Below, in pieces: positions 36,214 through 62,827 of a DNA stretch of 64,000 bases. Within the stretch, counting starts at the first letter, position 1, and each line of letters begins with the position of its first letter. Below the pieces are notes generated by a model. It ran no database searches. It worked only from the letters and a program-made list of their open reading frames with translations, and had not been told where the DNA came from. A program made the translations under genes and the position numbers. The DNA is from Clostridia bacterium (GTDB lineage Bacteria; Bacillota; Clostridia; Christensenellales; Aristaeellaceae). Where the stretch lies: contig JAFRBK010000011.1 of assembly GCA_017404985.1 (NCBI GenBank), positions 186,001-250,000 on the forward strand. The letters run 5' to 3'.

Positions 36214-36215
36214 AA

Positions 36216-37985: not shown

Positions 37986-37991
37986 CCGTCC

Positions 37992-38792: not shown

Positions 38793-38833
38793 CGCTGTTC
38801 TCTCAAACCCTTCCATGTTCAGTTCAATCCATT

Positions 38834-41865: not shown

Positions 41866-41916
41866 CCATTCCTTTTCATCCTGTCTCCAAATGCTGCTGG
41901 TACGGGCCTCTTTGTA

Positions 41917-43841: not shown

Positions 43842-43881
43842 CAGGGTTTCTGTTTCCTTTCCCGTTTCTGTTCTCACCCGT

Positions 43882-47000: not shown

Positions 47001-50000
47001 GGATAGTGGCCTGGATATTGTTCAGGTCCGTGTCTTCCGTCAGTGTGATCTCTTTACGGGCAGGGCTGACTGTGTAAATAGAGGAGACAAATTCCAGAAT
47101 ATAGGCTTTTCCGATCGGAATCCCGCTCAGCTGCCATTCACCATTCGCGTTTGTCTGCGTGAAGGTCGTCACCTGGTCCGGATTGTTTCCGGGCGAGGCA
47201 TATACGCTGATTCCCTGCGCCGATTCGCCCTCTCCTGTCCGAATCACGCCGCCGATGGAGGCAGTAGTTTCCGTTGGCTCTTCCCCTTCTGTGTAAGCAA
47301 TGATGTCGCCCACATCTCTTCCGTTTACCTGAGGATAGAACCTGTACTGATCCTCGCTGAAGCTGTATCCGGTTTTCTGGAAGCAGGTTACATAGTCTTC
47401 TGCCAGCAGGATGTTTTCAATGCTCCATGTCCCGTCTGTTCCGGTCTGCGTGCTGTATTTCAGTGTTTCGGATCCATAGGAATACATCTTCACAGACACG
47501 CCTGGCACAGGATTGCCGTTCGTGCCTGTTACCCTGCCGCTCAGTCTTCCGTATCCATCGTCCAGCTGATGCGTCTGGCTCTCATATTCCACCTGCGTGC
47601 CTGTGCTGTCCTTTACAAACACCTTTACCCTGTAGTCGCCGGGTTCCTGTGCCTGGAAGGTATAATAGCTGTCAGACATCCATGTGGTTTCATCAACCTT
47701 CGTAGTTCCGCGATAGATGATATAGGCATATTTGTATCCGGTACCCGATCCGCCGCTGGCGGAAGCATGGATATATGCACACGGATTTCCCTGCATTTCA
47801 CCCCATTCCACGCTGGCGCTTGCAGTCAGCATGTTTTCATATCCAACTGTGAAGTAGTACCTGTTGCCGTATATATCGTCCTCGCCCGTCGCCTCTGTTC
47901 CCAGGAACAGTCTGTATTGTCCGCCTTCCTTCAGCACGGATTTCGGAATCGTCACGTTCCGTCCGGTCAGCGTTCTGCTCCAGACCAGGCCTTCGTCGTT
48001 TTCCTTCAGTGTAATCTCATAGCTGCCGGTTCCGCCCTCGCCCGCTGTCCAACTCAGATACAGATCCTTGTATGGCAGCAGTGTATACGTGCTAGACGTC
48101 TGGCTCAGGGACACATTTGTTATTTCCGCGTAGGAATACTTTACGTTCTGTTTCACGGTCACCGTTGCTGTCTTTCCGTTGCATCGCAGTGTCACTGTGC
48201 CCGTGCGCGGATACCCGGTATTGTTCGTCGTCGCGGAGATGCAGAGGCTTCCGCTGTTAGTGGCGGACAAATAGTCCTCATAATCCGCCGGCGTCAGTTC
48301 TTCCTCCTCAAGATAAGACTCCTTGACCCGGTTTTTAAATACCATCAGCCAGTCTACGTTGCTCTTCGCGGACCATGCGCCGCTGGCATTCACACCCACA
48401 TAGCTGTAGTCATTCGTTCCGTCCAGCCAGATATTCTCATCCCCGTCATCGATAGTGATGTAGGCATTGTTGTCTCCGATGCAGAAATAATACCAGGTCT
48501 CGTAATCCGGCCACCGCTCCGTCTGTCTCATGATGGCAAGAACATAGACTTTTCCCGTTTCCATGGTCAGCCCGTTGAATGTATAGCTGCCATTACCATC
48601 CCGCAGCCGTTTGGAACTGCTCAGCGTCACGCAGGTATTGTCGCTTCGCATCTCCTTGATGCTCAGCTGATAATATTCCGCCTGCGGTTTGTAATCCCAT
48701 GTGACTGTCATATTTTTTGTCCCGGCTGGCAGGATAGTCGGATTGATTCGGTTTCCGGACAGCGTCGGGCTGCTGATCACCGGATATGGCTTTGCCAGAT
48801 AAGCTTCCTGCTGAATCGTCAGTGTAGTGCTCGCATTGCCGCATGTCACGGTTACTGTGCCCGTGCGTGTCTCTCCCCGGTTCTCGGCAACCTGTACTTC
48901 CAGCGTTGACCCTGCTGCGCCGCTTGTCCTGTTCAGCGTAATCCAGTTGCTGTTCTTCGTCGCTGTCCAGTTACCGGAGCATTGTACCGCATAGCTGAAC
49001 GTCTTTCCCAGATCGTTCACATGGTCTTCCCTCGGATTGCTTTGTCCGCTCAGCATCACAGATCCGTCGTTAATCATCATGAAAGTCTGCGTTTCGCCGC
49101 CGGTATAGTTATCGTAGCTGTCGTACGTGTACAGCATGATACTGTATGTGCCGTTCAGCTCCAGCATTGACTGAGGAATATCCCATTCCGTGACGGATGG
49201 GTTCAGTGACACGGATGTGATCAGTGTCGAACTGCCTGTATTCCGTTTTCTCAGCTTAATCCTATAATGATCCGCATCTGGCACCTGGTTCCAGGTCAGG
49301 TGCATCGGGCCATACTGAATCAGGGTCGGATTACTCTGATCCGTGGACAGGCTATGGCTTGTCAGCGTTGCCGTCCCGATCGGCAGCCCCTGATGGACTG
49401 TCATTGTTACAGTCTTGCCGTTCAGTGTAAAGGTAAACGTTCCCGTCCTCGCAGCCCCGCTGTTGTTCTGGTCAATATAGATCGTGCTGCTCTGCGTGCC
49501 CATGGAGCTCAGCGTGATCCAGCTGTAGGATGACGCAAACGTGCTTTTCTCACTCTGGCACATATTGATGCTGTAACTGTCGCCCATTCCGGATGCTTCC
49601 AGCGTATCCGTGCCCGAAGCCTCAAACGAGGCACTCAAAAGATTATCTGCTGCCTGCTCCACGGTGTAATATGCCGTATAGTAGTTCCCGCGCTTGAATG
49701 TTACCGTTCCCCTGCGCGTGTTGCCGGTCGTATTGGCTGTCACCTTGAAGGTCACAGTCGTTCCGCTTCCTGTATTCTTGCTGCCGCTCGTAGGAGTCAC
49801 CGTCAGCCAGCTTGCGTCAGAAGACGCTGTCCATGTGCCGCTCGCGGTAATCTTCTGTTCCTTGCTTCCCGCCGATGCCGGAGCGTACCACACCCGGCTT
49901 CCCATGTTGTTGATCAGAACGTAATCGGAGATGCTCGTACTGGTCTTAAAGTAATAATTGGCTTCCTGTCCGCCATGGCCGACAGTAACCCGGTATGTGG

Positions 50001-52080
50001 TGCTCGCAGTCAGATCACTCTGCAGTACTTCCCATCTTTCTGTCTCGAAAGAGCTTCCGGAGTATTCGTCGATCTGGGTATAACCGCTGCTGGTTTTCTT
50101 GGCAATAGAGATATCACTGCCTCTGAAAACCATATTGACGTCTGCCAGTTTCAGACTGGTCGGACTTCCGGAGTTCGTGGAAAGCTGCGGCTGCAGCAGC
50201 ACGGGAAGCATGCTCGCCTGAATCACTGTGATCGTCGCACTTTTGTTGTTGCATGTCAGCGTCAGGTGCCCTGTGCGTTCTTCCGCCGTCATGTTGTCAT
50301 CCGCCCAGACGTAATAATTGCTTAGTCCGATATCAGGGTCCCGGTTCAGCTCCAGCCAGTCCACGTCAGCTGTAACTGTGAACCGGCCTGTAGCATAGAT
50401 CATAATCATCGGAGAATCTGAATCCACAATGTGTACCGTTTCAGCTGCTTTGTTGTTGACCTTGATGTCTGTTGCGCTGTCCTGTGCAGTCACATAGTAG
50501 TCCGTATACTGCAGCATCTCTGTCTGTTCATAGGTGCTGAAGTTCTTATCCCATATGCCCATGATCCTGATCCTGTAGTTTTTGCCGTTCTCCAGCTTAA
50601 ATCGTGTCGGATCGTTGAATGAATAGAATGACTTGCTGGTATTCACATAGAATCTCGACACCCAGCTGCTTCCGGATTTTTCGTATACCGTAATACGCAC
50701 CATCGGGGCATCGCTCTTGTCAAATTCGAAAGAAGGATTGCCTGTCGGAAACGCAGATGGCGCACCTGAATCATTGGACATCGCCGGCCAGGAAATCTCT
50801 GGTGCTGCGTAGGCCTTCCCCTGGTTGATTGTCAGCGTGGCGGTCGTCGAATTGTTCTCCAGATTCACGGTAGCCTGCCTGTTGGCGCCGGTCGCATTCA
50901 GACCCATGCTGACTGTCAGGGTATCCACACCCTGCTCTATAGTAATCCAGTCGCTGTCTGTCGTTGCATCCCACGGGGTGGACGATGTAATGTCGAATAT
51001 CCTCGTTCCCGCCTTCTGGCTGGCCTGGTTCCATGTCACCGCCGTTGCATTGTTCAGATAGATCTGCGGATCCTTCACCACTGGCGAAGCCGTGAAATAG
51101 TAGGTATTCGGTTCTCCGTCTTCCAGATTCCTGCTGTATAGTTCTACCCGGAACAATGTCTTTTCGGCCGTGTTCAGGAGGGCTGCATCAAATGAATAGC
51201 TCAATTCCGTCAGTCCCTGCTCCGCAACGATCGTTTCCCATTTTGTTCCGTTCTGCCTAGCCAGCGTCAGCCCATAGGAAACCGCGTCTTCCGACGCATC
51301 CCATGAAATTTCTAGCCCGTCCGGCTTCTCGTAGTCCGGTGCGGTTTCCGCGTCGGTGCCCAGATTGCCGCTGTTCAGAACCGGAGCCTCCGGGAACAGC
51401 ATCCTCCGTGCATGTTCCGAGTATTCCCCGTAATAGCTGACCTCCGCATTGATCAGGCTGCTCAGTGCCATCGGCAGGCATACCGCCGATCTTGGAATGC
51501 GTACGCTCTGCAGCTGCCCGCAGTTTTCAAACGCATCTGCGCTGATATATGCCACCGGCTCCCCTCCCACTGTTTCGGGAACCGTAACGCTGTTTCCCAA
51601 CGCTTCCGGGTCTATCGCACACAGCAGGGATGCGCCTTCATCGCTCTGCTGATAATAGAATAAGCCATCTGTCAGCAGGTCTCCGAGCGCCACAAAGTGT
51701 TCCGCTCCCGCGCCTGCTATGTTTGTATTGTCCCGGCCAAAGGCGTACTTTACGCCTTGCAGAGAGTCTTCCCGGTATACTGTACCGGTACCTGTGGCAT
51801 ATACATAAACCGCTCCGGATGCAATCCTGCTCCCGACGCTTGCCACCTTATTCCCCAGCTTCAGCCCGTGGAGCCCTGCCCCGCTGAAAGCCCTGTCGCC
51901 AATGGATTCAACCTCAGAAGGCAGCGACACCAGCCCCGTCACCGACCGGTCTCCGTAAAAGGCTTCCTCCTCTATTCTCTTCAGTCCGCCCGGCAGCATC
52001 AAACCTGCTGACAGGGCCTGCACATCCACAGCGCAGAACAGAAAAGCAACCACCAGGATCATTGAAACCAGACGCCTCAT
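44044..52080 (-). CDS. Giant secreted protein with BspA LRRs, BACON-like and CarboxypepD-regulatory domains
   Basis: About 2,678 residues. Signal peptide MRRLVSMILVVAFLF; LRR_5 units (residues 25-210); then at least six BACON-like beta-sandwiches (near 345, 541, 722, 817, 1003, 1207; typical SD.DWITI...TG..R.GTVTL) that alternate with fibronectin-III-like modules; two carboxypeptidase-regulatory-like domains near 1510 and 1607 (GRVTGTNGNPVPGVSV); further beta modules; an SH3-like unit near 2103-2150 (VWGKLGEYYYVQLG); and a C-terminal helical region of about 400 residues with no recognised family. BACON domains are best known from Bacteroidota, where they bind glycans or mucin. ATG 52080 has GGAGGGG before it; ATG 52137 in frame does not begin the signal peptide. 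Confidence 0.85.
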   Translation of the reverse strand: MRRLVSMILVVAFLFCAVDVQALSAGLMLPGGLKRIEEEAFYGDRSVTGLVSLPSEVESIGDRAFSGAGLHGLKLGNKVASVGSRIASGAVYVYATGTGTVYREDSLQGVKYAFGRDNTNIAGAGAEHFVALGDLLTDGLFYYQQSDEGASLLCAIDPEALGNSVTVPETVGGEPVAYISADAFENCGQLQSVRIPRSAVCLPMALSSLINAEVSYYGEYSEHARRMLFPEAPVLNSGNLGTDAETAPDYEKPDGLEISWDASEDAVSYGLTLARQNGTKWETIVAEQGLTELSYSFDAALLNTAEKTLFRVELYSRNLEDGEPNTYYFTASPVVKDPQIYLNNATAVTWNQASQKAGTRIFDITSSTPWDATTDSDWITIEQGVDTLTVSMGLNATGANRQATVNLENNSTTATLTINQGKAYAAPEISWPAMSNDSGAPSAFPTGNPSFEFDKSDAPMVRITVYEKSGSSWVSRFYVNTSKSFYSFNDPTRFKLENGKNYRIRIMGIWDKNFSTYEQTEMLQYTDYYVTAQDSATDIKVNNKAAETVHIVDSDSPMIMIYATGRFTVTADVDWLELNRDPDIGLSNYYVWADDNMTAEERTGHLTLTCNNKSATITVIQASMLPVLLQPQLSTNSGSPTSLKLADVNMVFRGSDISIAKKTSSGYTQIDEYSGSSFETERWEVLQSDLTASTTYRVTVGHGGQEANYYFKTSTSISDYVLINNMGSRVWYAPASAGSKEQKITASGTWTASSDASWLTVTPTSGSKNTGSGTTVTFKVTANTTGNTRRGTVTFKRGNYYTAYYTVEQAADNLLSASFEASGTDTLEASGMGDSYSINMCQSEKSTFASSYSWITLSSMGTQSSTIYIDQNNSGAARTGTFTFTLNGKTVTMTVHQGLPIGTATLTSHSLSTDQSNPTLIQYGPMHLTWNQVPDADHYRIKLRKRNTGSSTLITSVSLNPSVTEWDIPQSMLELNGTYSIMLYTYDSYDNYTGGETQTFMMINDGSVMLSGQSNPREDHVNDLGKTFSYAVQCSGNWTATKNSNWITLNRTSGAAGSTLEVQVAENRGETRTGTVTVTCGNASTTLTIQQEAYLAKPYPVISSPTLSGNRINPTILPAGTKNMTVTWDYKPQAEYYQLSIKEMRSDNTCVTLSSSKRLRDGNGSYTFNGLTMETGKVYVLAIMRQTERWPDYETWYYFCIGDNNAYITIDDGDENIWLDGTNDYSYVGVNASGAWSAKSNVDWLMVFKNRVKESYLEEEELTPADYEDYLSATNSGSLCISATTNNTGYPRTGTVTLRCNGKTATVTVKQNVKYSYAEITNVSLSQTSSTYTLLPYKDLYLSWTAGEGGTGSYEITLKENDEGLVWSRTLTGRNVTIPKSVLKEGGQYRLFLGTEATGEDDIYGNRYYFTVGYENMLTASASVEWGEMQGNPCAYIHASASGGSGTGYKYAYIIYRGTTKVDETTWMSDSYYTFQAQEPGDYRVKVFVKDSTGTQVEYESQTHQLDDGYGRLSGRVTGTNGNPVPGVSVKMYSYGSETLKYSTQTGTDGTWSIENILLAEDYVTCFQKTGYSFSEDQYRFYPQVNGRDVGDIIAYTEGEEPTETTASIGGVIRTGEGESAQGISVYASPGNNPDQVTTFTQTNANGEWQLSGIPIGKAYILEFVSSIYTVSPARKEITLTEDTDLNNIQATILSDTEEELDISFTMKQNGRNVTETNTGEAVLFTVTAPEADYVRLVVDGIPYETTPMPANGRAAEIYRTFNKAGVNRAIQFQAGNGNGWGTLSETKYLTVKAAENLQKATFITEKDAVFDITDNVTIAWQPVPHATGYAIDVYYEGVHWWEPEELITDEFIQIPQNVIQTTGNYSIDVIAVGPGYSQSTSGLCFTVSSKDYPLTIQTPKKNDRFIMGDTLYFKVENPQLGYVILTLTDEDGGVTVLPEEGVLSGEICEVYYAVPKHGTFTVKAYASPTNYRFVPEYARSESQPITIYVDGATVSNVRVGDGMAYQFCNDARLLKATTNNAVDRVEVYEGDTLLDTLAYEEENYKRIFTGQAEMPSEGFHRYVFKAYDTDSNTEAERKFGFYAINEYTCNDIYPKHDGVEMRDGITTGSLVIRTLYISDKVDVWGKLGEYYYVQLGNDKGFVKKTELRSTQVTKLNNVYIRLINPADNGLEFKQSGHMISVRIDTDYDLPASMKYIVSVVPRYAGDQTNYHFDLGQNKVGGIPSDALPADDYAINVSIVNAENENIVYTWSDSVFFTLYPDYASYQQAMNYNPLDDYKALFNYAANVVRQNQAIFTVGGVMDDGTIQKVEIESLTNGEIRALVAIATGKAAENCDLTVVEGIYLADLFMRRLGNEGARSNLIDLEVIKDLLEYLQVESDVAEMIYDYFLEADGVIKVIGGDGKIRMQWSRNAYKKSLKILEEDKAAVQKYGNTMGKIGTALSVLDAMAKIIDAMIVYSSVSNADIDRIVPLLQASGYAPLQKAAGYMSEMKSTFGKIAFLTISIGGQDVAIDLIENGLKEYAMNKLIEVAGSGPFAAFLVGCDIGAKVGTTVNNTFLNIDGIYQAAYKTQWCANAAEQFYHHVFVRKAEAFNNDPAGKRGEMQNAAFIYTELTGATYSAFAKVYQELDNAWVNQISNWFTHDEKNANAARNCESLAAMMRTYLDYSLSDECIGYYVQ

Positions 52081-52157
52081 TCTCTTTTTTCCCCTCCACG
52101 AATTTCTTCCAGACTGTTCAGTTATCCGGCAATCCATCTTTGCATTATTATGGAAAT

Positions 52158-52353: not shown

Positions 52354-54912
52354 TTATCCGCTATATGACTCGTAGCCAGGGTATTTTGCATAGCTCCCAT
52401 CCGCGGCAATCAGCTCAATAAAATTGTCAATCTCAATGATGTCCGCCTTGTGGCATTTCCGGATCTCGATCTGGTAATTCTTCCGGCAGATCTTCAGCGG
52501 AACCTGTTCCCACAGGTTCTCCTTCCCGGCCCGGCTGTTGTATACTTTCATCAAATCCGCCTTCAGTTTCTCCGCGTCCTCCCCGTCCCAGTATGAAATC
52601 CCGAAGGCCTGGTAGCAGTCCGTCCCGCCCCGCTGGTAGTCGCACGCAAACCCGTTCCGCTTCCTGAAGCACCAATCGTCCGTCTCGTCCACCTTCGCCC
52701 CCAGGTAATTGGTCCGATACTCGTATTTGTTGATCACATCCGGATTGCTGATGTACAGATCCGCCTCGCAGATATAGCACCGGTCGATCAGTTCCGCCGC
52801 GCACACCGCCGAACTGATATTGTTCGCCAGGTTGAATTCCGGGTTGTCAATGAACCGGATCGTCGGGTACTTCTCCAGCAGCGCATCGAACTGCTCCTTC
52901 TTGTACCCTCTCACAATCGTGATGTTCGTAATCTCCTTCGCATACAGCGCGTCCAGCAGCGTATCCAGGATCCGGACGCCGTTCACCTTCACCAGCGGCT
53001 TCGGCGTGTCCAGCGTCACCGGCGCCAGCCGCTGCCCGAATCCCGCCGCCAGGATGATCGCCTTCCGCACCCGGTATGGCTCCAGCGCCTTTTTCCCCTT
53101 CTCGCTGATCTCGATGCTCCCGTCCGCCAGCTGGTTGATGTAGTCGCGCTCCGCCAGCTCCGCCGTCAGCTTCTCCGTGCTCGCCAGGGGAATCCTCAGG
53201 TCGTCCGCCAATGTCCGCTGGCGGTAGATCCCCCGCCCGTTTTTCTCCAGATAGGCCAGCAGGTTGAATTCATACCGGCTCAGCCCGATGCCCCCGTCGT
53301 TTTCCCGGCTGTCCTTCCTGTTGATGATGCCGGTAATCGTCGTGAAAATCACCCTTGCCCCCACGTTCAGCACCAGGATGATCAGCGAAATCACGCTCTG
53401 CATCTCGTAGTTGCTGTTCTTCTCGTAGGTAGTAATCAGGATGGAAAGCGGCTGGTTGTCGTATGTGCACAGGAAAGCCACCGCGGAGATAGTGATCATG
53501 CTGTTCAGGAAGAAGTAGGAGAGCATCTCCACCAGCGTCGATACCGAGGAAGGAATCAGCACCTTCCGGATGATCCGCCCTTTGCTGATCCCCAATGTCT
53601 CCCCGATCACTTCGTATTCGCTGTTGATCTTGTTCAGGCAGTTCTTCGCCAGCAGGTACGGCGACCCCAGGAAGTGGAAAATATTCACCACGACCAGAAT
53701 CAGGATCGTCCCGTAGAACGTCCCGTTCGTATCCTTAAATAAAAAGATATATCCAATCCCCAGCACCAGCCCGGGAATGGCGATCGTGGACAGCGCCAGC
53801 AGGTCCACCGCCTTCGCCATCCGACCCGCCTTCCGCACGGAAAAATATCCCAGAAGATAAGCAAAGCATGTCCCCACCACAGCCGTCAGCAAAGCCAGCG
53901 CCAGCGAATTCGCGATATACTGCGTCAGCCCGACGCCGTGCGTGTTCGAGAAGATATTGCCGATGTGGTCCAGCGTGAACCCCAGGTCGTTCGGAAAAGC
54001 CTTCGTGAAGCTCAGGCTGATGAAAGCGATCTGCGGCAGAAAAAGCACGAGGCACAGCAGGATGATCACGCAGGCCGTCCCCCGGTTGTATCCCTTCCCC
54101 GCCTCAATCAGCCGCTTCTGTTTCTCGCTCACGCTCTGGTCCCGGAAAATCAGGTCAAACCCAAAGGAAACCACCGCCGGAATCAGCAGCACGAACCCGG
54201 CGATGCTCCCCCGCCCGTACTGGAAGGAGCTCATGAACTGGTCGTACAGGTACATCGGCAGGGTCTTCACCTTCCCTGCGATCTCCATCGGCATCCCGTA
54301 GTCGGAGAAAATCAGCGTGAAGCATGCGCAGAAAGCGGAAATCAGCGCGATCCGCAGATACGGAATCGTCAGGTGGAAGAAGGTGCTGGCCCGGGAAACG
54401 CCCATGATGTTCGCCGCGTCGTAGGGCCCCTTGTCCTCGTATTTCAGCGCGTCGTAGAGAATCAGGAAAGTCGCCGGGAAGGATGTCATCACCGATCCCA
54501 TGATCAGCCCGGGAAATCCCCGGATCTCAATTTCCCATCCGAAAAGCAGGTCGATGAAGCCGTTCTTCCCGAAAAGGATCCGCAGTCCCAGCCCGACGGA
54601 GATCGTCGGCACCAGCATCCCCAGCGTCAGCAGGACCACGAAAACATTCTTCCGCCGGATGCTCGCCGTGTTCAGCAGGTATGCCGCCCCCAGCGCCAGC
54701 CCCGTGGTGATGGCCGCTGCGGCGCCGGTGTAGATTAGCGAATTCACCACGGCCTGCTGGAAGCCCTTGTTTCCGGCAATCTTCTCCCAGTCCTTCGCCG
54801 TCACGTTGAACGCCAGCGTAATCAGCGGCAGAATGGCAAAAAGGATGATGCACCCGATCGCGATCACCCGCAGCGTTTCATGCCGGAAAGCGCCGATGAT
54901 TTTCTTGATCAT
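52354..54912 (-). CDS. ABC importer permease fused to winged helix and LicC-like cytidylyltransferase
   Basis: 852 residues in one open frame. Residues 1 to about 540 are a double permease of the Fe3+/thiamine/2-aminoethylphosphonate importer group, with two EAA loops (YDAANIMGVSRASTFFHLTI and YEVIGETLGISKGRIIRKVL). About 550-612 is a winged helix (LSRYEFNLLAYLEKNG, STEKLTAELAERDYI). From about 615 to the end is a nucleotidyltransferase like phosphocholine/aminoethylphosphonate cytidylyltransferases: AIILAAGFGQRLAPVTLDTP, KPLVKVNG, ICEADLYISN, ISYWDGEDAEKL. Its start overlaps the ATPase stop (ATGA). The C-terminal part should lie in the cytoplasm at the membrane. Import coupled to CDP activation is inference. 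Confidence 0.85.
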   Translation of the reverse strand: MIKKIIGAFRHETLRVIAIGCIILFAILPLITLAFNVTAKDWEKIAGNKGFQQAVVNSLIYTGAAAAITTGLALGAAYLLNTASIRRKNVFVVLLTLGMLVPTISVGLGLRILFGKNGFIDLLFGWEIEIRGFPGLIMGSVMTSFPATFLILYDALKYEDKGPYDAANIMGVSRASTFFHLTIPYLRIALISAFCACFTLIFSDYGMPMEIAGKVKTLPMYLYDQFMSSFQYGRGSIAGFVLLIPAVVSFGFDLIFRDQSVSEKQKRLIEAGKGYNRGTACVIILLCLVLFLPQIAFISLSFTKAFPNDLGFTLDHIGNIFSNTHGVGLTQYIANSLALALLTAVVGTCFAYLLGYFSVRKAGRMAKAVDLLALSTIAIPGLVLGIGYIFLFKDTNGTFYGTILILVVVNIFHFLGSPYLLAKNCLNKINSEYEVIGETLGISKGRIIRKVLIPSSVSTLVEMLSYFFLNSMITISAVAFLCTYDNQPLSILITTYEKNSNYEMQSVISLIILVLNVGARVIFTTITGIINRKDSRENDGGIGLSRYEFNLLAYLEKNGRGIYRQRTLADDLRIPLASTEKLTAELAERDYINQLADGSIEISEKGKKALEPYRVRKAIILAAGFGQRLAPVTLDTPKPLVKVNGVRILDTLLDALYAKEITNITIVRGYKKEQFDALLEKYPTIRFIDNPEFNLANNISSAVCAAELIDRCYICEADLYISNPDVINKYEYRTNYLGAKVDETDDWCFRKRNGFACDYQRGGTDCYQAFGISYWDGEDAEKLKADLMKVYNSRAGKENLWEQVPLKICRKNYQIEIRKCHKADIIEIDNFIELIAADGSYAKYPGYESYSG

Positions 54913-55670
54913 TGGATGCTGTCCTCGATGCTCTTCACTTTCATGTCCAGGTGGTCGACCACGAACCGCTTCACGAAGGCGTCCGCCGGATGGTGATAGA
55001 TCTGGTAGGGCGTGTCCAGCTGGGCAATCCGCATGTCGTTGATCACCATGATCCGGTCGGACAGGGCAAAAGCCTCCTCCTGGTCGTGGGTCACGTAGAC
55101 CATCGTGATCTTCAGCTTCTTCTGGATCTCCTTCAGCTGCCCCCGCAGCGTGATCTTGATCTCCGCGTCCAGTGCGGACATCGGCTCGTCAAACAGGATG
55201 ATGTCCGGGTTCAGCACCAGCGTCCGCGCGATCGCGACCCGTTGCTGCTGCCCGCCGGAAAGCTGTTTCGGTTTTTTGTAGATGTGCTCCTCGAGCCCCA
55301 CCGTCTCGATCATCTCCCGAACCTTCCGGTCCGTCTCTGCCTTCCCCGCCTTCCGGCTCTGCAGCGCGTAGGAGATGTTGTGGTATACGTCCATGTTCGG
55401 AAAAAGGGAATAGTTCTGAAAAACGATCCCGATGTTCCGGTCCTTCGGCGGGGCGTCGGTGATGTCGATGCCGTCTTTGAGGATCTTCCCGCCGGTAGGC
55501 TTCTCGATCCCGATCAGCATCCGCAGAATGGTCGTCTTCCCGCATCCGGAGGGCCCCAGCAGAGACAGGAACTCGCCCCGCGCCACGTCGAAGGATACGT
55601 CCTCCAGCACGGTCTTCGCCTTGAATTTCTTGCTGATGCCCTGCGCCTGTATAATGGGTTCCGCTCCCAT
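54909..55670 (-). CDS. ABC transporter ATPase (PotA/FbpC-type)
   Basis: 253 residues. Walker A GPSGCGKT, Q-loop FQNYSLFPN, signature LSGGQQQRVAIARTL, Walker B IILFDEP and H-loop VTHDQ are all intact. It lacks the extra C-terminal domain of PotA-like ATPases. It powers the fused permease that follows with an overlapping start, and the binding protein is the gene before it. ATG 55670 has GGAGG seven bases upstream; the frame extends to a TTG at 55694 without support. Confidence 0.93.
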   Translation of the reverse strand: MGAEPIIQAQGISKKFKAKTVLEDVSFDVARGEFLSLLGPSGCGKTTILRMLIGIEKPTGGKILKDGIDITDAPPKDRNIGIVFQNYSLFPNMDVYHNISYALQSRKAGKAETDRKVREMIETVGLEEHIYKKPKQLSGGQQQRVAIARTLVLNPDIILFDEPMSALDAEIKITLRGQLKEIQKKLKITMVYVTHDQEEAFALSDRIMVINDMRIAQLDTPYQIYHHPADAFVKRFVVDHLDMKVKSIEDSIQ

Positions 55671-55691
55671 GCCCTTCCTCCAAAACGCAGG

Positions 55692-55720
55692 CAAAAGAAC
55701 AGCAGTTTCCCGCTGTTCCC
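55692..55720 (-). terminator. Hairpin between binding protein and ATPase genes
   Basis: GAACAGC and GCTGTTC (55712-55718 and 55697-55703) form a 7-bp stem, followed on the minus strand by CTTTTG-type bases. Probably a partial terminator or 3'-end stabiliser that keeps binding-protein mRNA more abundant than the downstream genes. Confidence 0.5.
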
Positions 55721-55736
55721 TGCCCTTATGCCTTCA

Positions 55737-56741
55737 TTAATATTCCCACTGGTCAAGCAAATCCTGCTTGTATTCGAAGTCAAACATGCCCGCCATGGTG
55801 ATCTCCCCGAATCCCGTCGGATAGTTCGGAATCTCCGCCGCCGGCATGTCGGTGTAGATGATGTCCGGGTTGAACAGCGCGCACTGCGGCTTGTTCAGCT
55901 CGTTGTAAAGGTACGTGAACACGTCCTTCACCGCGGGCTTTTCCTCGTGCCCGCTGATCATCCCCATGGTGAACAGGTCGTACGCCAGCCCCTGCTCGGG
56001 AACAATCACCGCCAGCCCCTCGTTCTCGTTGGCATAGTTCACGCACTGCCACAAAAGCCCGTATGCGATCGCCACGTCCCCGCGCACGGCGGCCTTCGCC
56101 GGGGCGGACCCGGAGGTGGTATATTCCTTGATGTTCGGGTTCAGCGCTTCGAAGTAGGCCAGTCCCTCGTCCTGCCCCATCATCGTCACCATCCCGTTGT
56201 AGTAGCTGTATCCGGTCCCGGAGCTCTTCGGGTTCGGCATGGAAATCAGCTCGGCGTATTCCGGCTTCAGCATGTCCTCGTAGGTGGCGGGAACGTCCAG
56301 CCCCTTCTCCTCCAGGATCTTCGTGTTCACCAGGAAGGCTCCGTAGGTCTTGCCGTTCACCGCGTATTTATGGTGCCGTTCGGTGTACCCGGTCACGGAG
56401 GCGTCGTATATGGAGAAGTCGTAGTCGCTCAGCTCGACGAACAGGTCCGGGTCAGCGTTCAAAATGATCTCCGCGTTCACAACCTCCAGGTCGTAGAAGA
56501 TGTCGCAGTCAGAGCTGCGCCCCTCCGCCTGCAGCTTGCTCAGCATCTGCCCGGTTCCGAGGCTCTGGATGACGATTTCAACGTCCGGAAACTGTGCGTC
56601 CAGCTTCTCCTGCAGGTAAGCGATCCGCTCGTCCTCCGCCGCGGTATAAATCACCACCCGCTCAGAAGCCGCAAAAGCCGATCCAATCCCCAGCACCCCC
56701 AGCAGAAAAACCACTAAAATCAGAAAAGCACCCTTCTTCAT
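55737..56741 (-). CDS. Secreted solute-binding protein of the Fe3+/AEP importer group
   Basis: About 334 residues. The signal peptide (MKKGAFLILVVFLLGVLG) is cleaved after SAFA. The mature start ASERVVIYTAAEDERI, then FPDVEIVIQSLGTGQML and SDCDIFYDLE, fits class-II binding proteins related to iron (FbpA) and 2-aminoethylphosphonate (PhnS) carriers. No lipobox Cys. The paired tyrosines that bind iron in FbpA are not obvious, which speaks for an organic ligand. ATG 56741 has GGAGGAGA seven bases before it. It is the first gene of a three-gene importer operon with a consensus promoter. Confidence 0.85.
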   Translation of the reverse strand: MKKGAFLILVVFLLGVLGIGSAFAASERVVIYTAAEDERIAYLQEKLDAQFPDVEIVIQSLGTGQMLSKLQAEGRSSDCDIFYDLEVVNAEIILNADPDLFVELSDYDFSIYDASVTGYTERHHKYAVNGKTYGAFLVNTKILEEKGLDVPATYEDMLKPEYAELISMPNPKSSGTGYSYYNGMVTMMGQDEGLAYFEALNPNIKEYTTSGSAPAKAAVRGDVAIAYGLLWQCVNYANENEGLAVIVPEQGLAYDLFTMGMISGHEEKPAVKDVFTYLYNELNKPQCALFNPDIIYTDMPAAEIPNYPTGFGEITMAGMFDFEYKQDLLDQWEY

Positions 56742-56873
56742 ACGAAATCTCCTCCCTGCGCCCTCATTCAAGCCCAACCCCGACCTGAAAGGGATAAACC
56801 CCATTGAAGCCTGAGTCCGTTCGAGGGCTTTCCGGTTCAATCAAAGCATCGCCGCTCCGACGAACTGAACAGT

Positions 56874-56902
56874 ATTATAGAAAGAGCCACCCCCATTGTC
56901 AA
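56874..56902 (-). promoter_or_regulatory. Consensus promoter of the importer operon
   Basis: Minus strand TTGACA (56897-56902) and TATAAT (56874-56879), exact consensus at both boxes with a 17-base spacer. The leader to the start codon is about 125 bases. Confidence 0.85.
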
Positions 56903-56950
56903 GATTTTTCCGTTCATTTCCTATTTCCTTTTTTCTTCTTTTGAACAAGC

Positions 56951-56996
56951 CGAAACGGAGGGACGGTCTTTTTCGTTTCGCCGTCCCTCCGTTTCG
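56951..56996. terminator. 16-bp perfect inverted repeat downstream of the cytidylyltransferase
   Basis: CGAAACGGAGGGACGG (56951-56966) pairs perfectly with 56981-56996 around a 14-base loop, 14 bases after the stop of the 57010 gene. The minus-strand downstream bases are only mildly T-rich, so termination is probable but not certain. Confidence 0.6.
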
Positions 56997-57009
56997 CCCG
57001 TTCCCCCCG

Positions 57010-57915
57010 TCAAACATCATAAGTCTTATCAATCGCCTTCAACTCTTTAAAAGTATCAATCTCCACAATATCCTCCTCCCTGCACTCCCGCACCTCAACC
57101 TGGTAGTGCTCCTTTCGGTATACCAGCGGCACCTGTTCCCAGTACCGTTCCTTCCCGCCGGGAGCATTGTAAACCTCCTGAATATCCTGCGATAACTTAT
57201 GCCCGTCCGCGTCATTCCAGTAGCTGATGCCGACCATCTGCCAGATATCGTCCCCTTCCCCGCCAACCTTCTCCTCAATAATCACGCCGTCCCTCACCCG
57301 GAAGCACCAGTCATCGCTCCGCTCCTTCCGAATCCCAAGGAAATCGGAAGTATAGTGGTATTTTCGGATGATTGCGGGATTGGAAATCAGCAGGTCCGCT
57401 TCGAACACATAGGCGTTGCTCAGCATGTATCGCGCAACCAGCGCGCTGGAGATGTTGTTCGCCTCGTTGTATACCGGATTCTCCAAAAACTTCACCATCG
57501 GGTATTTATAAAGCAGCTGGTCAAAAAGCTCTCCCAAATACCCCCGTACGATGTAGATCTCGTCGATCCCCGCTTCCAGGCATGCGTCAATCAGCCGGTC
57601 GATGATCCGTGTCCCGTGCACGCGCACCAGCGGCTTCGGCGTGTTGAACGTGATCGGCACCAGCCGCGTCCCGAACCCGGCTGCGATGAAAATCGCCCGC
57701 CTGGCCCGGTAGGGTTCCAGCGCGGTCAGTCCCTCGCTGGTGATCCGTGAATTGTCCACCAGCCCCCGGTCCCCCAGTTCCTTCATCACCTTGTTGATGG
57801 TCCCCAGCGAGTGCCCGGTCATGCCCTCCAGCTTCCGCTGGGTCAAAGGCGCCAGCGAAGTCGCCAACGCCTCCAGCACGTCAAATTGTTTTCTCGTCAG
57901 TCCCGCATTCTCCAT
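57010..57915 (-). CDS. Winged helix-LicC-like cytidylyltransferase
   Basis: 301 residues. Residues 1 to about 75 form a MarR-like winged helix (LTRKQFDVLEALATS, LGTINKVMKELGDRGLV). The rest is a nucleotidyltransferase close to the C-terminal part of the fused permease: RAIFIAAGFGTRLVPITFNTPKPL, VFEADLLISN, DDWCFRVRDG, GISYWNDADG. Such enzymes make CDP-choline-like or CMP-aminoethylphosphonate intermediates used to decorate surface glycans. The winged helix may bind DNA or nucleotides. A GGAGGGG site lies ten bases before the ATG. It stands just upstream of the importer operon on the same strand, apparently with its own transcript. Confidence 0.85.
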   Translation of the reverse strand: MENAGLTRKQFDVLEALATSLAPLTQRKLEGMTGHSLGTINKVMKELGDRGLVDNSRITSEGLTALEPYRARRAIFIAAGFGTRLVPITFNTPKPLVRVHGTRIIDRLIDACLEAGIDEIYIVRGYLGELFDQLLYKYPMVKFLENPVYNEANNISSALVARYMLSNAYVFEADLLISNPAIIRKYHYTSDFLGIRKERSDDWCFRVRDGVIIEEKVGGEGDDIWQMVGISYWNDADGHKLSQDIQEVYNAPGGKERYWEQVPLVYRKEHYQVEVRECREEDIVEIDTFKELKAIDKTYDV

Positions 57916-57973: not shown

Positions 57974-60900
57974 TCAACTTACTTTTTCCCCATCCAGTCC
58001 ATAATAGATTTCCTCGCTGACTTTCCCGTCTTCGCCGTATTTTCTTTCCACCCGGCAGTACCCATCCTTGCAAAGCATGGGTTTGCCATCTGCATCGTAA
58101 TACTGCTCCTGGATCACTCTGTTCTTCTCGTCGTAATCATACGCCGTCTGGTAAACGCCTTTCCCGTTAGCCATCGGAGCACTCGTGTGATCCATATAGC
58201 TCTCGTAGTTCACCCGCTTCTTTTCATCGTACCGCAGCCATACCATTTCGTATCCGGCGTTGCATTTCGTGGGATTCCCTTCGCCGTCAAAGAATTTCAG
58301 TACGTTCGCGTTTCCGTTCTCATCAAATTCCCGTTCAACAGCACAATAGGTATCCTTCGGCGCCATCGGCTTGTCATCTTCATCGAACCACGCTTCATAT
58401 TCAGCATGATTCTTGTCCAGCCATCTGCGCACAATACTGTGATACCCGTCTGAGCTCCTGACTGCTTCGCCGGACGTCCCCCAGTATGCTTCATTCGCCA
58501 CGAGGTTCTTGTCGTCGTATTCCCGTGTAATGGCAGCAATTTTCTTGTTATTCAGCACGGGAGAACCATCCAGCCAGTACTCCAGCCGAATCACCAGCTT
58601 GTTTTCATTGAATTCCTGCCGCAGCTCGTCATATCCGGCCTTGCAGGCAATGGGCACTCCTTCCGCGCCATAATACCGTACCCGAATGTTGTTTTTGTTT
58701 TCGTCGAATTCCCGCTCAACAGCGCAATAGGTATCCTTCAGCGCCATCGGCTTGTCATCTTCATCGAACCAGGCTTCGCGCAGGATGTGGTCCTTATCCA
58801 GATAAATCCGGTCGATCCGATGATACCCGTCCGTGCTCTTTATCGGTTCCCCATCTGTCCCGAAATATGCCTCAGAAGCCACCAATCCTTTCTCATCATA
58901 TTCGCGAACCAGCGATGCATAACCTTTTTCCCGCAGAACAGGCTTTTCTCCCAGCCAATAGCTGATCCTTACCGCCTGTTTTTTCTCATTGAACTCCTGC
59001 CGCACCTCATCATATCCGGCCTTGCAGGCGATCGACTCTCCTTCCGTGCCATAATACCGTATCCGAATATTGTTTTTGTTTTCATCGAATTCCCGCTCAA
59101 CAGCGCAATAGGTATCTTTCAGCGCTATCGGCTTGTCATCTTCATCGAACCAGGCTTCGCGCAGGATGTGGTCCTTATCCAGATAAATCCGGACGATCCG
59201 GTGATACCCGTCCGTGCTCTTCAGGGCTGCGCCAAACGTTCCCCAGTATGCCTCATCCGCCACCAGGTTTTTGTCGTCATATTCCCGTGTGATGACGGCT
59301 ATTCCCTTGTTGTTCAGCACCAGGGAATGATTCAGCCAGTATTCAATCCGAACCACCAGGTTTTTCTCATTGAATTCCTGCCGCAATTCGCCGTATCCGG
59401 CTTTGCAGGCGATGGGCTGGCCGTCTGCCCCGAAATACCGTTCTTTCGTCAGGTTCTTTTTCTCGTCGAATTCCCGTTCAACCCGAACAAAGGTGTTTCC
59501 TTTGGTCACGGGCTGCTCGTTTTCATCGAACCAGGCTTCACTCAGGATATGGTCCTTATCCAGATAGGTCCTCTCAAACCGGTGATACCCGTCCGTGCTC
59601 TTCAGGGCTTCATTCGACGTTCCCCAATAAGCCTCTTCCGAAACCAGGTTCTTGTCGTCATATTTCCGCGTGATGATTGCAATTCCCTTGTTATTCAGCA
59701 CCGGGCTTTTCTTCAGATAATACTCAATCCGAACCAGCAGGTTTTTCTCATTGAACTCCTGCCGAATCTCATCATATCCGGCATTGCAGGCAATCACAGT
59801 CCCGTCTGCATCGTAATACAGCACCCGGATATTATTCTTTTTGTCATCAAACTCCCGCTCAATCCGGACATACGTATCCCCGACCGTCATCGGGGCACCG
59901 TTTGTATCGAACCAGGCCTCGCTGGTTACATGGCTCGCATCCAGACTGGTCTTCTGAATTTGGTGATACTTGTTCTTCGTGTGATAGACAGGCTCTCCAT
60001 CCACGCCGAAATAGCTTTCTTCGTTCAAAATATTCTTGTCATCGTATCCCCTTATAGTCACGGCAACCCCGAATTCGTTCACCACCAAATGATTATCCCG
60101 GTCGTAATAGGAGATTTTGATAGTATTCCCTTTGGTATCTGCATCATTGACGATATACGCGTATCCCGCTGCCAGGTTCATCAGTTTCCCGTCTGTCCCG
60201 TAATATTCCTGAATATATCCGGCTTTCTCCTGTTCCGAAGGTTCAGGTTCCTCCGCCGAAGCATCTTCCTCAGCATCGAAGGCATTCCCGGCTTCCGCTT
60301 CTTCCCCTTCTTCCTCCTCAGCCTCTTCCTCCGACGCAGCCTCCGGCTCGTCCTCCTTGCCCAGGTACTGCAGGTCTTTGAACGAGATCGTCCTCACATA
60401 GGCATATTCTTTCCCAGGCGTAAACACCAGGTTCCCGTCCACGCCATAGTATTTCGTCGCCATCGCCTTTTCGCTGCTGTTGTATTCCGTTTCAACGGCA
60501 GCGTACCCATCCGTGCAGGCAACGGGCTGTCCCTCCGTGTCAAAGAAGCTCTTCCGAACCACTTTCCCGTTCCCGTTGTATTCGAATTTCACCAGATGGT
60601 ATCCATCCCTGCCGTCCACCGGTTCCCCGTCCAGCCAGTAGCTCTCCGTTGTCTTGTTGTTCCCTTCCCAGGTGTTCCGGACCTCATCCGCATGCTGCTC
60701 CCCGGCATACGGATTTCCTTCCGTATCATAATACCGGGTAGACACTACTTTTTTATCCTGGTATTCATTTTCGGCGCTGGCATACCCCTCCGCGCAGTTC
60801 ACCGGGGTTTTCCCGTCCGTCCCGAAGTAAGCCGTCCGGACCACCAGGTTCTGCTTGTTAAAGGTATAGTTCACCACCGCGTATCCTTTGGGCCCGATCA

Positions 60901-62065
60901 TCAGCTTCCCGTTTTCATCGTAATACTCGGTTCGGGCCAGATTCTTCTTGTCCCGGTATTCATTTTTGATCGCCGCATATCCAAGGGATTCCACCACGAT
61001 TGGCTGGTCATTCTCGTCGAAATACCGCTGATAGGACACCTGGCCCTGCATGGTGAAAACCCGTGTCGTCCGGCTGTAGCCGTCTGTGCTCTTTCCCCGG
61101 ATCCCTTCGCCGATATAATACCGTTCTTCAACGATCCGGTCCCTGGTTCCCAGCCACCGCTGGAGCCCGCAGATTCCCTTCTTATTAAAATATAGGCTCC
61201 CGTCCGCGTTATAGTACATGGCGAGCCGCACTCTCCCGCCCCCGCTGTAGCTGTAAAGCACGTATGCATATCCTTCCGGGCCGGCAATCAGGCTGCCGGC
61301 TTCATCCTCCGGGGACGCCTTCTCGCCGTAATACCGGGTTTCCCGGAGCGCTGCATTTTCATAAATGGATTCCATGGTGGCATACCCGGCTTTGGCATAA
61401 TAATACGGTTGCCCGTCTGCCCCAATATAGGCCGTCCGGCTCTTGTTCTTCCCGACATAGCTGTATTCCACCCGGGCATAGCCGTCCGGCCCCGCCGTCA
61501 GATTGCCGTCCGCGTCATACCAGGTATCGCTCGTCACCATCTGGAAGGTGCTGATCTGGGCATATTCCGTGATCCGATGCCAGCCTACGGGATTCCCGTC
61601 CGGATCATACCGCCAGGTGCTGGCATGTTTTCCGTTCAGGTACCTGGTTTTCATCCAGGCGTATCCGTCCGGGCCCGTCACCAGCTTCCCGTCGGCATCG
61701 TAGAAATACTGTTCCTCCAGTTTCTTGGACCGGTAGATATCTTTCCGGACTGCATATCCCTCAGCACTGTTGATCGGTTTTCCCTTCGTGTCCAGATACT
61801 CAATCTGGCTCACTTTATTCCCGGAGGTATAGCTGTACCGAATCATCGCGTATCCCTTGTCGGAGGCAATCACCGGATTCCCGTCCGCATCCACATAGGT
61901 CTTCGATTCCACCAGCTTCCTGTTGCGGGCATTGTAAACCACCACCTGGTTCAGATTGGTGGATAACTCTGCCACACCGGCATTCACCGGCAGAAGTGAA
62001 AAAAGGATGCATGTGATCACCGCAATCACAGATAGCAAAACAGACAAACGCCCCTGTTTCCTCAT
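57974..62065 (-). CDS. Large secreted YD-like repeat protein (paralogue 2)
   Basis: About 1,363 residues. Signal peptide (LLSVIAVITCILFSLLPVNA), then YD-like units, an acidic spacer near residues 560-610 (Glu/Ala-rich), and five super-repeats of about 127 residues in the C-terminal half. Each super-repeat holds four sub-units marked by EAYWGT, EAWFDEDDKP, ACKAGYDE and RIEYWL. It matches the 31432 protein over the full length in order of parts. No toxin, hydrolase or wall anchor is seen. The ATG at 62065 (second codon of a frame that starts with TTG) has AAGGTGG upstream. It starts a separate transcript from a TTTACA-type promoter and ends 58 bases before the 57915 start. Confidence 0.8.
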   Translation of the reverse strand: MRKQGRLSVLLSVIAVITCILFSLLPVNAGVAELSTNLNQVVVYNARNRKLVESKTYVDADGNPVIASDKGYAMIRYSYTSGNKVSQIEYLDTKGKPINSAEGYAVRKDIYRSKKLEEQYFYDADGKLVTGPDGYAWMKTRYLNGKHASTWRYDPDGNPVGWHRITEYAQISTFQMVTSDTWYDADGNLTAGPDGYARVEYSYVGKNKSRTAYIGADGQPYYYAKAGYATMESIYENAALRETRYYGEKASPEDEAGSLIAGPEGYAYVLYSYSGGGRVRLAMYYNADGSLYFNKKGICGLQRWLGTRDRIVEERYYIGEGIRGKSTDGYSRTTRVFTMQGQVSYQRYFDENDQPIVVESLGYAAIKNEYRDKKNLARTEYYDENGKLMIGPKGYAVVNYTFNKQNLVVRTAYFGTDGKTPVNCAEGYASAENEYQDKKVVSTRYYDTEGNPYAGEQHADEVRNTWEGNNKTTESYWLDGEPVDGRDGYHLVKFEYNGNGKVVRKSFFDTEGQPVACTDGYAAVETEYNSSEKAMATKYYGVDGNLVFTPGKEYAYVRTISFKDLQYLGKEDEPEAASEEEAEEEEGEEAEAGNAFDAEEDASAEEPEPSEQEKAGYIQEYYGTDGKLMNLAAGYAYIVNDADTKGNTIKISYYDRDNHLVVNEFGVAVTIRGYDDKNILNEESYFGVDGEPVYHTKNKYHQIQKTSLDASHVTSEAWFDTNGAPMTVGDTYVRIEREFDDKKNNIRVLYYDADGTVIACNAGYDEIRQEFNEKNLLVRIEYYLKKSPVLNNKGIAIITRKYDDKNLVSEEAYWGTSNEALKSTDGYHRFERTYLDKDHILSEAWFDENEQPVTKGNTFVRVEREFDEKKNLTKERYFGADGQPIACKAGYGELRQEFNEKNLVVRIEYWLNHSLVLNNKGIAVITREYDDKNLVADEAYWGTFGAALKSTDGYHRIVRIYLDKDHILREAWFDEDDKPIALKDTYCAVEREFDENKNNIRIRYYGTEGESIACKAGYDEVRQEFNEKKQAVRISYWLGEKPVLREKGYASLVREYDEKGLVASEAYFGTDGEPIKSTDGYHRIDRIYLDKDHILREAWFDEDDKPMALKDTYCAVEREFDENKNNIRVRYYGAEGVPIACKAGYDELRQEFNENKLVIRLEYWLDGSPVLNNKKIAAITREYDDKNLVANEAYWGTSGEAVRSSDGYHSIVRRWLDKNHAEYEAWFDEDDKPMAPKDTYCAVEREFDENGNANVLKFFDGEGNPTKCNAGYEMVWLRYDEKKRVNYESYMDHTSAPMANGKGVYQTAYDYDEKNRVIQEQYYDADGKPMLCKDGYCRVERKYGEDGKVSEEIYYGLDGEKVS

Positions 62066-62104
62066 CAATTTCCACCTTCCCTTCGGAACCGAAGATTTAT
62101 GAAT

Positions 62105-62524: not shown

Positions 62525-62827
62525 TTATCTTTTGAACAGGTCGCTGTGCGTTCCGGTTCTGGCCAGGGACAAGACTAAAACATCATCTTCAAGATAGTAG
62601 ATCAAAAGCCAGTCTGAAAGAACATGCAATTCCCTGTGGCCCCTCCAGTCTCCACTTAATTCATGATCATCATAATCTTCAATCAGTCTTTCCTGCTGAT
62701 CTCCTTTAGCGATGAGACGAATCACATCATCCAATAGGCTGATATTGTATCCCCGTTTAATGGCAAGCTTGTAATCCTTTTTGAATCGGGTTGACCACTT
62801 AACTTTGTATTTATCCACATTACTCAC
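62525..62827 (-). CDS. yafQ: YafQ-type mRNA interferase toxin
   Basis: 100 residues of the RelE superfamily. The YafQ signature is intact: DHELSGDWRGHRELHV, DWLLIYY and the end RTGTHSDLF, with the His/Asp residues used for ribosome-dependent mRNA cleavage. The start overlaps the antitoxin stop (ATGA at 62824-62827), the usual layout with the antitoxin first. Confidence 0.93.
   Translation of the reverse strand: MSNVDKYKVKWSTRFKKDYKLAIKRGYNISLLDDVIRLIAKGDQQERLIEDYDDHELSGDWRGHRELHVLSDWLLIYYLEDDVLVLSLARTGTHSDLFKR

Follow-up and report, generated by a model that had tools for sequence, protein, structure and literature searches.

Why should the transport channel of an importer be joined in one polypeptide to an enzyme that activates head groups, and what would such a protein bring into the cell? 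The question is raised by an operon in a 64,000-nucleotide stretch (the window) of a Clostridia bacterium genome (assembly GCA_017404985.1, contig JAFRBK010000011.1), in which one gene encodes a double ATP-binding cassette (ABC) permease, a winged helix (WH) and a cytidylyltransferase resembling LicC and PntC (Table 1). The fusion, its recurrence and conservation, the gene contexts, the motif residues and a repeat upstream of the operons were established by computation. On balance, we lean towards reading the operon as a module that imports and activates a head group for decorating the cell surface with phosphonyl groups, with 2-aminoethylphosphonate (AEP) or a close analogue as its presumed cargo.

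The fusion frame has 852 codons and, in the list of open reading frames (ORFs), zero internal stops. BPD_transp_1 was matched in two stretches within residues 25–534, for which the best NCBIfam match is TIGR03262 (PhnU2). NTP_transferase covers residues 617–704 and NTP_transf_3 residues 618–728, and a search of PDB sequences aligned residues 613–830 with LicC (1jyk, E = 1.6e-22); the LicC/PntC fold extends over the whole domain. The neighbouring gene encodes a free-standing enzyme that is 47% identical to the C-terminal part of the fusion over 301 columns. Its WH was matched by MarR_2 (Pfam, E = 1e-6), while that of the fusion went undetected by Pfam. The structure model of the fusion is weak (mean pLDDT 61, pTM 0.41), with pLDDT values of 64–86 in the WH block. 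A preliminary description of this DNA had read one frame as a double permease, a WH and a nucleotidyltransferase, and the gene next door as a free WH-nucleotidyltransferase of the same family. Both readings are borne out, as is membership in the LicC/PntC family, which the comparative evidence below supports; the free enzyme, however, belongs to another clade.

A search with peptide patterns from the fusion, using one genome per species, returned 36 loci (L081, on the same contig as L027, was dropped before counting). The same fusion is present in 27 of them (L014–L040), including four cut by contig ends (L029, L035, L036, and L040). In L041 and L042 the same genes are found with permease and enzyme as separate neighbours, and the remaining seven loci contain related enzymes, no such permease being found there. 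The 22 full-length fused relatives are 54–81% identical to the window protein over its whole length. The metagenome-assembled genome (MAG) that contains the window, on its contig C42, comprises 2.98 Mb in 52 contigs and is 85% complete, a state in which a chimeric junction might be suspected; since 27 other loci share the junction, an assembly artefact is ruled out for practical purposes. The preliminary description had allowed both for such an error and for absence of the fusion from close relatives. The latter applies in part: among eight listed genomes of the same genus, window genome included, only that genome and G311 have the fusion, which is thus patchy within the genus.

The wider enzyme family was surveyed with a profile of 34 WH-enzymes, at most five candidates being scored per genome at a threshold of E 1e-20. 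Matches were obtained in 33 of 396 order, 17 of 398 phylum and 42 of 391 class genomes, these draws overlapping, and 40 regions around matches were fetched. ORFs in the fetched loci were chosen by a greedy script, and contexts were labelled by similarity to reference proteins from the loci, mostly annotated by Pfam or NCBIfam, under score thresholds of our own setting. Five settings of the enzyme recur. The fused importer is found at 28 loci, window included, and at 13 others substrate-binding protein (SBP), ATPase, permease and WH-enzyme are adjacent but unfused. The earlier proposal that import is tied to cytidylyl activation thereby receives comparative support. In the third setting, eight longer enzymes stand at AEP-synthesis genes (L044, L045, L047, L103, L104, L105, L108, and L111); their WH is shortened in L044, L045, L104, and L111, L047 is a partial frame, and three further such loci (L107, L120, and L121) have WH-less enzymes. 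At L103, phosphoenolpyruvate (PEP) mutase, phosphonopyruvate decarboxylase and AEP aminotransferase all exceed their NCBIfam cut-offs. The fourth setting is an APC-type permease, found at L083, L085, and L087 with no kinase label nearby; L015, L018, L021, and L024 have one next to their free copy. This setting is perhaps a second kinase-less import route. In the kinase loci, finally, a WH-LicC-kinase fusion adjoins another cytidylyltransferase. Enzymes of L082, L096, L098, L099, L110, and L113 fall in none of these settings.

The transporter was placed by a survey with TIGR03262 over the same 396 order genomes, with at most three candidates scored per genome, which gave at least 64 permeases in 43 genomes. 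A WH-enzyme lies no more than 6 kb away from 13 of the 16 scoring 293–402 bits, and from none of the other 48. Three permeases exceed the cut-off of the model, two of them (L127 and L128) beside phosphonatase and PhnW, each above its own cut-off, and one (L129) without these genes. The enzyme-linked permeases would accordingly rank as relatives of likely AEP importers in which the enzyme replaces catabolic genes. In a tree of 41 permeases, built without an outgroup, the 28 fused and 13 separate ones form two long-separated groups. The link to the enzyme therefore arose or was rearranged more than once, and derivation of the fused permease at a late stage from the adjacent four-gene operon is unsupported. 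This recurrence in separate permease clades also bears on the idea that AEP is simply taken up for phosphorus or nitrogen, the enzyme having joined by accident. The phosphonatase and PhnW genes beside two of the three above-cut-off relatives would suit that idea, as would the catabolic role of the AEP importers in the available text of PMC8316502. Yet at importer loci the 6.5 kb on either side of the enzymes carry no AEP transaminase label, and phosphonatase was found in none of 30 genomes with a fused or adjacent module, a weak negative because 14 control genomes likewise gave none. Accidental association is very improbable.

The two enzymes of the window were compared with their relatives in two trees. 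A quick tree comprised 111 enzyme domains; L029 (too short) and the aminotransferase-fused nucleotidyltransferases of L097 and L099 were left out of it and of the residue table. A careful tree retained 64 of the 111 rows, without the "other", choline-side and WH-less synthesis groups, the fused enzyme of L036, L046, L047 and ten further rows. In the quick tree, a 44-row set (27 importer-linked, 8 synthesis-linked, 3 APC-linked, and 6 other) includes the free copy of the window, and the smallest starred set containing that copy has 14 rows, including L103. The 27 fused rows form one clade in the quick tree (94); the 19 kept in the careful tree are interrupted by the kinase-side clade and hence require two changes. 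Both trees group the fused domains with enzymes beside WH-LicC-kinase fusions (support 99/92 in the careful tree, where the free group without L019 has 89/96). Judged from sequence, free and fused enzymes are thus paralogues of different clades with different pockets, a feature the preliminary description did not foresee. That the free gene was simply duplicated into the permease is, on these grounds, not supported. Because the free enzyme shares clade and context with AEP synthesis, it is classed as PntC by both. The fused copy lies outside that clade and is better described as a close relation of PntC, its presumed substrate being less certain than that of the free enzyme.

Active-site positions were assigned by alignment to LicC, using the residues discussed for LicC and Treponema denticola PntC in the available text of PMC6697681. 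At the amine-side position (LicC Asp105), Glu is present, as in PntC, in 28/28 full WH-enzymes and 5/5 WH-less enzymes near an importer, in 27/27 fused rows and in the synthesis-linked enzymes (8/8 longer and 3/3 WH-less), but at choline-kinase loci in 0/8 kinase-fused and 3/11 other enzymes. Glu occupies the positions of T. denticola E104 and E196 in both window enzymes (E172 and E260 in the free, E716 and E802 in the fused copy). The E196 position discriminates less, since Glu is also frequent there among kinase-linked enzymes and Asp is found in 11 of the 28 importer-side free enzymes. The GXG(T/S)RX4-8PK motif is matched in the free copy (GFGTR...PK). The metal-binding Asp, which we take to be LicC D107, is kept in 27/27 fused rows. 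The metal-binding Glu, LicC E216 in the same source (PMC6697681), is kept in 26/26 covered fused rows, and both residues are kept in 28/28 full WH-enzymes near an importer. Aromatic residues alone are not decisive for the substrate, since they are also kept in Atopobium rimae PntC according to the text available (PMC6697681).

These residues bear on whether the fused domain works as an enzyme at all. It might instead sense or regulate the flux through the transporter, or be a duplicate in decay, so that only the free enzyme would make the CMP conjugate. Two clades in one operon are compatible with this, as is the CTP-site loop of the window fusion (GFGQR...PK), in which Arg and Lys are kept while Gln replaces Thr/Ser, as in 18 of 27 fused rows. 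The head-group pocket is altered too: the LicC Tyr190 position is Tyr in the free clade and Leu in 24/26 fused rows. Moreover, 18 of the 28 fused loci encode, no more than 6.5 kb away, a further family enzyme that is separate and has no kinase part (WH-less in L033, L034, and L039). Nevertheless, equivalents of Arg84, Lys94, Asp174, Trp203, Glu285, and Asp287 are kept in every covering fused row, mean identity is higher in the enzyme part than in the WH (78% versus 59%, with the WH diverging faster in every group), and no other such enzyme was found nearby in L016, L028, L030, and L037. A fused domain without catalytic function is therefore considered unlikely.

Upstream of many of these operons there is an inverted repeat, TGTTCA-N25/26-TGAACA, which is a new observation. 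In the window alone the pattern is unremarkable (seven one-mismatch matches, six of them elsewhere), so the case rests on comparison across loci. Of 25 regions upstream of fused-locus importer genes, 21 contain GTTCAA or its complement, against 4.9 expected from shuffles. Over 1.24 Mb, pairs of TGTTC[AG]...[CT]GAACA accumulate at start-to-start distances of 31 (14 pairs) and 32 (6), with 0–8 at other distances. A matrix trained on 11 pairs from the even-numbered loci and the window gave 48 matches at 31/32, of which 42 lie near the start of a gene for an SBP, a WH-enzyme, a LicC-like protein or a kinase; such surroundings make up no more than 5.4% of the bases. The six others include sites in L032, L042, and L094. 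In the odd-numbered loci, 22 of 24 matches lie near such starts; these loci are held out with respect to the matrix only, motif and spacing having first been seen across all loci. For comparison, 43 other distances gave a mean of 5.5 matches (maximum 14), with a mean of 1.2 near gene starts (maximum 5); distance 30, excluded from this comparison, gave seven, six near gene starts. At a score of 14, the repeat is present in 20/25 fused, 5/13 adjacent and 1/3 APC-linked loci; three fused loci lacking the importer upstream region (L029, L035, and L040) were not judged, and L019 was counted through a site between its enzyme genes (24.6; 12.2 before the importer). Two copies 74–76 bases apart recur in L014, L015, L021, L024 (second copy 13.7), and L027, and in seven fused loci, window included, the first base of TGTTCA lies 1–2 bases beyond the −10 box. 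This placement suits a repressor, perhaps with looping.

The WH of the enzymes is the most plausible reader of this repeat. In a recognition-helix table limited to rows spanning the whole domain, SLGTxN or a near form is found in most free copies, and G-x-x-N is kept in 34 of the 39 shown. By eye, the repeat at score 14 accompanies 19 of the 34 loci whose free enzyme has G-x-x-N and none of the five without it (L094, L098, L099, L105, and L110). It is likewise present at 2/3 AEP-synthesis loci with a full-length WH and 0/8 with a shortened, partial or absent one. Among fused rows, SLGTxN is kept in the deeper ones (L033, L034, and L036–L040) and lost in the window's subclade. We read the WH as a DNA-binding part that would work in the free copies and be fading in the window's fused copy; a reading of the upstream operator by the WH, likewise not anticipated by the preliminary description, is thus probable, and the WH-enzymes may be NadR-like autoregulators of their own operons. 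There is a real but lesser chance that an unrelated regulator reads the repeat, the WH being a structural or dimerisation module. Such a regulator would account for the drift of the WH in the rumen fused subclade, its shortening or absence in some PntCs, its net charge, which is not positive on average, and the loci with the usual helix and no repeat, e.g., L088–L091. It accounts less well for the agreement between helix and repeat just described, or for the presence of the repeat at import, AEP-synthesis, APC-permease and kinase operons, whose common gene family is the WH-enzyme.

If the WH does bind the repeat, the deeper fused branch would be a special case. In L033, L034, and L039 the fused WH-enzyme is the only one on the fetched stretch, and strong repeats (22.8–27.0) stand at the importer promoter. 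A single polypeptide might there be import channel, activating enzyme and transcription factor at once, so that the flux through a membrane-bound importer would be signalled directly to the promoter of that importer; we regard this as speculative and rather improbable. In the window's subclade, the regulatory role would have passed to the free enzyme. The motif pattern may simply follow descent: L036 keeps the motif with a free copy present, and the idea that the free partner causes decay of the helix was dropped for that reason.

As for the origin and destination of the head group, the window genome, 85% complete, gave no match to PEP mutase and none to Choline_kinase, which supports the earlier suggestion of salvage rather than synthesis. 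A surface destination for the head group also gains comparative support, LicD being found in 24 of 28 fused-importer genomes and in 2 of 14 controls. PEP mutase is present in seven of these 28 genomes and gave no match in 21. Seven regions around it were fetched. In five of these, the mutase is joined to both an NTP_transf and a CTP_transf part, a triple fusion confirmed with Pfam for L133 and L136; two of the seven contain a Pfam-confirmed iron alcohol dehydrogenase, and none an AEP transaminase (the L132 region covers only 4.6 kb). By their domains, these regions would fit hydroxyethylphosphonate rather than AEP.

A sequence of events can be proposed from these data. SBP and ABC importer would bring AEP or a close analogue into the cell, and, as such a head group already carries phosphorus, a kinase would be unneeded. 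PntC-type enzymes in the cytosol, one free and one fused to the permease, would use CTP to turn it into a CMP conjugate where it leaves the channel or close by, thereby trapping it. The C-terminus of such permeases is usually cytosolic. A transferase encoded elsewhere in the genome, LicD or another, would then attach the head group to a polymer of the capsule or of a teichoic-acid-like kind. The WH would read the inverted repeat at the operon promoter, the enzyme thus also regulating uptake as NadR does.

Several observations weigh against this proposal. SBP, ATPase, and permease all score below the AEP-transport equivalog cut-offs (156/393, 331/458, and 309/593 bits), and the importer is therefore filed as a relative, not a member, of PhnS2/T2/U2. 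The fused domain lies outside the AEP clade, with its changed CTP-site loop and Tyr190 position. In another kinase-fused group, the amine-side Glu occurs in 0/6 fusions but in 5/6 of their partners, so Glu alone is no proof of AEP. The window genome has one LicD, on another contig, and no transferase gene in the operon. The repeat is absent at score 14 from 5/25 fused and 8/13 adjacent loci and from L105 at AEP-synthesis genes, and absences in general are soft because MAGs are incomplete. Some of these points would suit a kinase-less Lic-type salvage, in which the importer takes phosphocholine, phosphoethanolamine or a phosphodiester of either, with CDP-choline or CDP-ethanolamine as the product of the enzymes. 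Among solved structures the nearest is LicC, which sequence and fold resemble more than they do T. denticola PntC (the fold comparison barely probes the WH). Furthermore, the kinase of the fusions whose neighbours group with the fused clade matches Choline/ethanolamine kinase, and at L123, one of the 13 enzyme-linked permeases, the same transporter type adjoins such a WH-LicC-kinase fusion. Against choline stand the amine-side Glu in 55/55 full WH-enzymes of the module, the longer AEP-synthesis enzymes within the free clade, the kinship of the transporter with likely AEP importers, the lack of a choline kinase match in the window genome and the loss of the aromatic residue at the Tyr190 position in most fused rows. 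Choline-type salvage is thus a possible but clearly less favoured explanation. The choice between choline and AEP that the preliminary description had left is narrowed to AEP for the free enzyme, and only loosely so for the importer and the fused enzyme.

Table 1. Features of the operon and of the adjoining free enzyme gene (positions in the window)
Feature	Position	Strand	Basis or remark
Fused protein, 852 aa: double ABC permease, WH and LicC/PntC-like cytidylyltransferase	52354..54912	-	ORF, domain matches
Cytidylyltransferase part, residues 616-841	52390..53067	-	E716, D718, W747, W801, E802, E827 kept
WH part of fusion, about residues 543-613; SLGTxN recognition-helix motif lost	53074..53286	-	Alignment to free copy
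Permease part, residues 1-534, PhnU2-like	53311..54912	-	TIGR03262, 308.7 bits, below cut-off 593
ABC transporter ATPase, PhnT2-like	54909..55694	-	TIGR03265, 331 bits, below cut-off 457.7; 4-base overlap with fusion start
SBP with signal peptide, PhnS2-like	55737..56741	-	SBP_bac_6; TIGR03261, 156 bits, below cut-off 392.75
Putative operator copy 2, TGTTCA-N26-TGAACC	56834..56871	.	Matrix score 14.5; starts 2 bases after -10 box
Promoter TTGACA-17-TATAAT, 12/12 consensus	56874..56902	-	
Putative operator copy 1, TGTTCA-N25-TGAACG	56911..56947	.	Matrix score 18.4; just upstream of -35 box
Strong hairpin, about 24 pairs, between free enzyme gene and importer operon	56943..57003	-	Minimum free energy -41.7 kcal/mol, z -6.5
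Free WH-cytidylyltransferase, 301 aa, PntC clade	57010..57915	-	

The importer genes are all on the minus strand in the order SBP, ATPase, fusion. The start of the SBP is most likely the ATG at 56741, which GGAGG precedes; the listed ORF ran to 56840. The hairpin is terminator-like but was unflagged by a terminator scan, and it overlaps the edge of operator copy 1. No Rfam match to a leader riboswitch was obtained. Directly downstream of the fusion, 44047–52137 encodes a 2697-aa protein with BACON repeats and a BspA-type repeat. A capsule export cluster (CpsB, LytR-CpsA-Psr, AAA_31 ATPase, Wzz, epimerase, NTP transferase, and GHMP kinase) occupies 35515–43877, and its polymer is a possible target for decoration. 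The window also contains two large proteins without a Pfam match (57977–62068, 1364 aa, visibly repetitive, and 31435–35463, 1343 aa), a 1629-aa frame combining DEAD/Helicase_C and UvrD-type helicase domains (24115–29001) and a RelE/YafQ-type toxin gene (62528–62827).

Related loci hold further arrangements. In L097, L112, L114, L038, L043, and L046, a WH-LicC-kinase fusion adjoins a second WH-enzyme, with an amidohydrolase near in four of them; these loci appear to represent an uncharacterised head-group system, and in L038 enzyme, kinase and enzyme form a single 895-aa frame. A fusion of a YidC-type insertase with Glyphos_transf lies near the enzymes of L019, L024, L042, L083, L092, L097, and L099 (by Pfam in L024, by similarity in the others), accompanied in several by sulfatase-fold proteins, and is a candidate transfer machinery. 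An ornithine cyclodeaminase/mu-crystallin homologue also occurs in L087 and L015, where a WH-PntC and an APC-family permease are found. The triple fusions of NTP_transf_3, CTP_transf_like and PEP mutase (L131–L134 and L136) come from genomes that also have the fused importer. In a same-genus genome, a 748-aa fusion of NTP_transf_3, CTP_transf_like and iron alcohol dehydrogenase (L094:6275-8521) adjoins an unfused importer module.

By record title, 17 of the 27 related MAGs are of ruminant gut origin (six name a ruminant host, and 11 carry the RUG label, which we take to mean rumen genomes). AEP was reportedly first found in rumen protozoa, by Horiguchi and Kandatsu in 1959, and a source would therefore be at hand for bacteria of the ruminant gut. 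Surveys based on PEP mutase would miss such bacteria. With the fusion, the coupling of activation to import can be tested directly, and from the repeat one would expect a family of cytidylyltransferases regulating their own supply.

In the titles and abstract openings surveyed from the open-licence literature, neither a permease-cytidylyltransferase fusion nor a WH-LicC regulator is described. A transporter fused to an enzyme that converts its cargo is known from LplT-Aas, which combines a major facilitator superfamily transporter with an acyltransferase, whereas an ABC permease is fused here. In NadR/PnuC, a DNA-binding domain and a nucleotidyltransferase are paired with a transporter, the cargo is trapped by activation, and NadR regulates nicotinamide riboside uptake. 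The present enzymes would resemble NadR in combining both domains (plus a kinase in the sister family) and in their pairing with a transporter; folds and substrates are unrelated, and the regulation proposed here is read from the repeat. The Lic pathway (choline uptake, LicA kinase, LicC, and LicD) runs likewise from import through cytidylyl activation to transfer onto surface glycans, and LicC has the closest fold; here there is no kinase, the importer is of the ABC type instead of a choline carrier, and the pocket residue is of the phosphonate type. The PhnSTU2-type and AepXVW/AepSTU importers with SBP_bac_6, as far as the available text describes them (PMC8316502), share the SBP, ATPase, and permease families; the present ones differ in scoring below the equivalog cut-offs, in having no catabolic genes seen nearby and in the permease-enzyme fusion. 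The PntC described in the accessible part of PMC6697681 is similar in its LicC-type fold, in the Glu at the AEP-amine position, in WH relatives within AEP-synthesis clusters and in LicD in most genomes. Fusions reported there join a nucleotidyltransferase to PEP mutase or PntC to AEP transaminase; here, by contrast, an importer takes the place of PEP mutase as the partner of the enzymes, which carry a WH and in one case are fused to the permease. Thus, in the text available, reported AEP uptake feeds catabolism (PMC8316502) and reported AEP decoration starts from PEP mutase (PMC6697681), and the module would be a third route, by which a bacterium captures AEP made by others and wears it on its surface.

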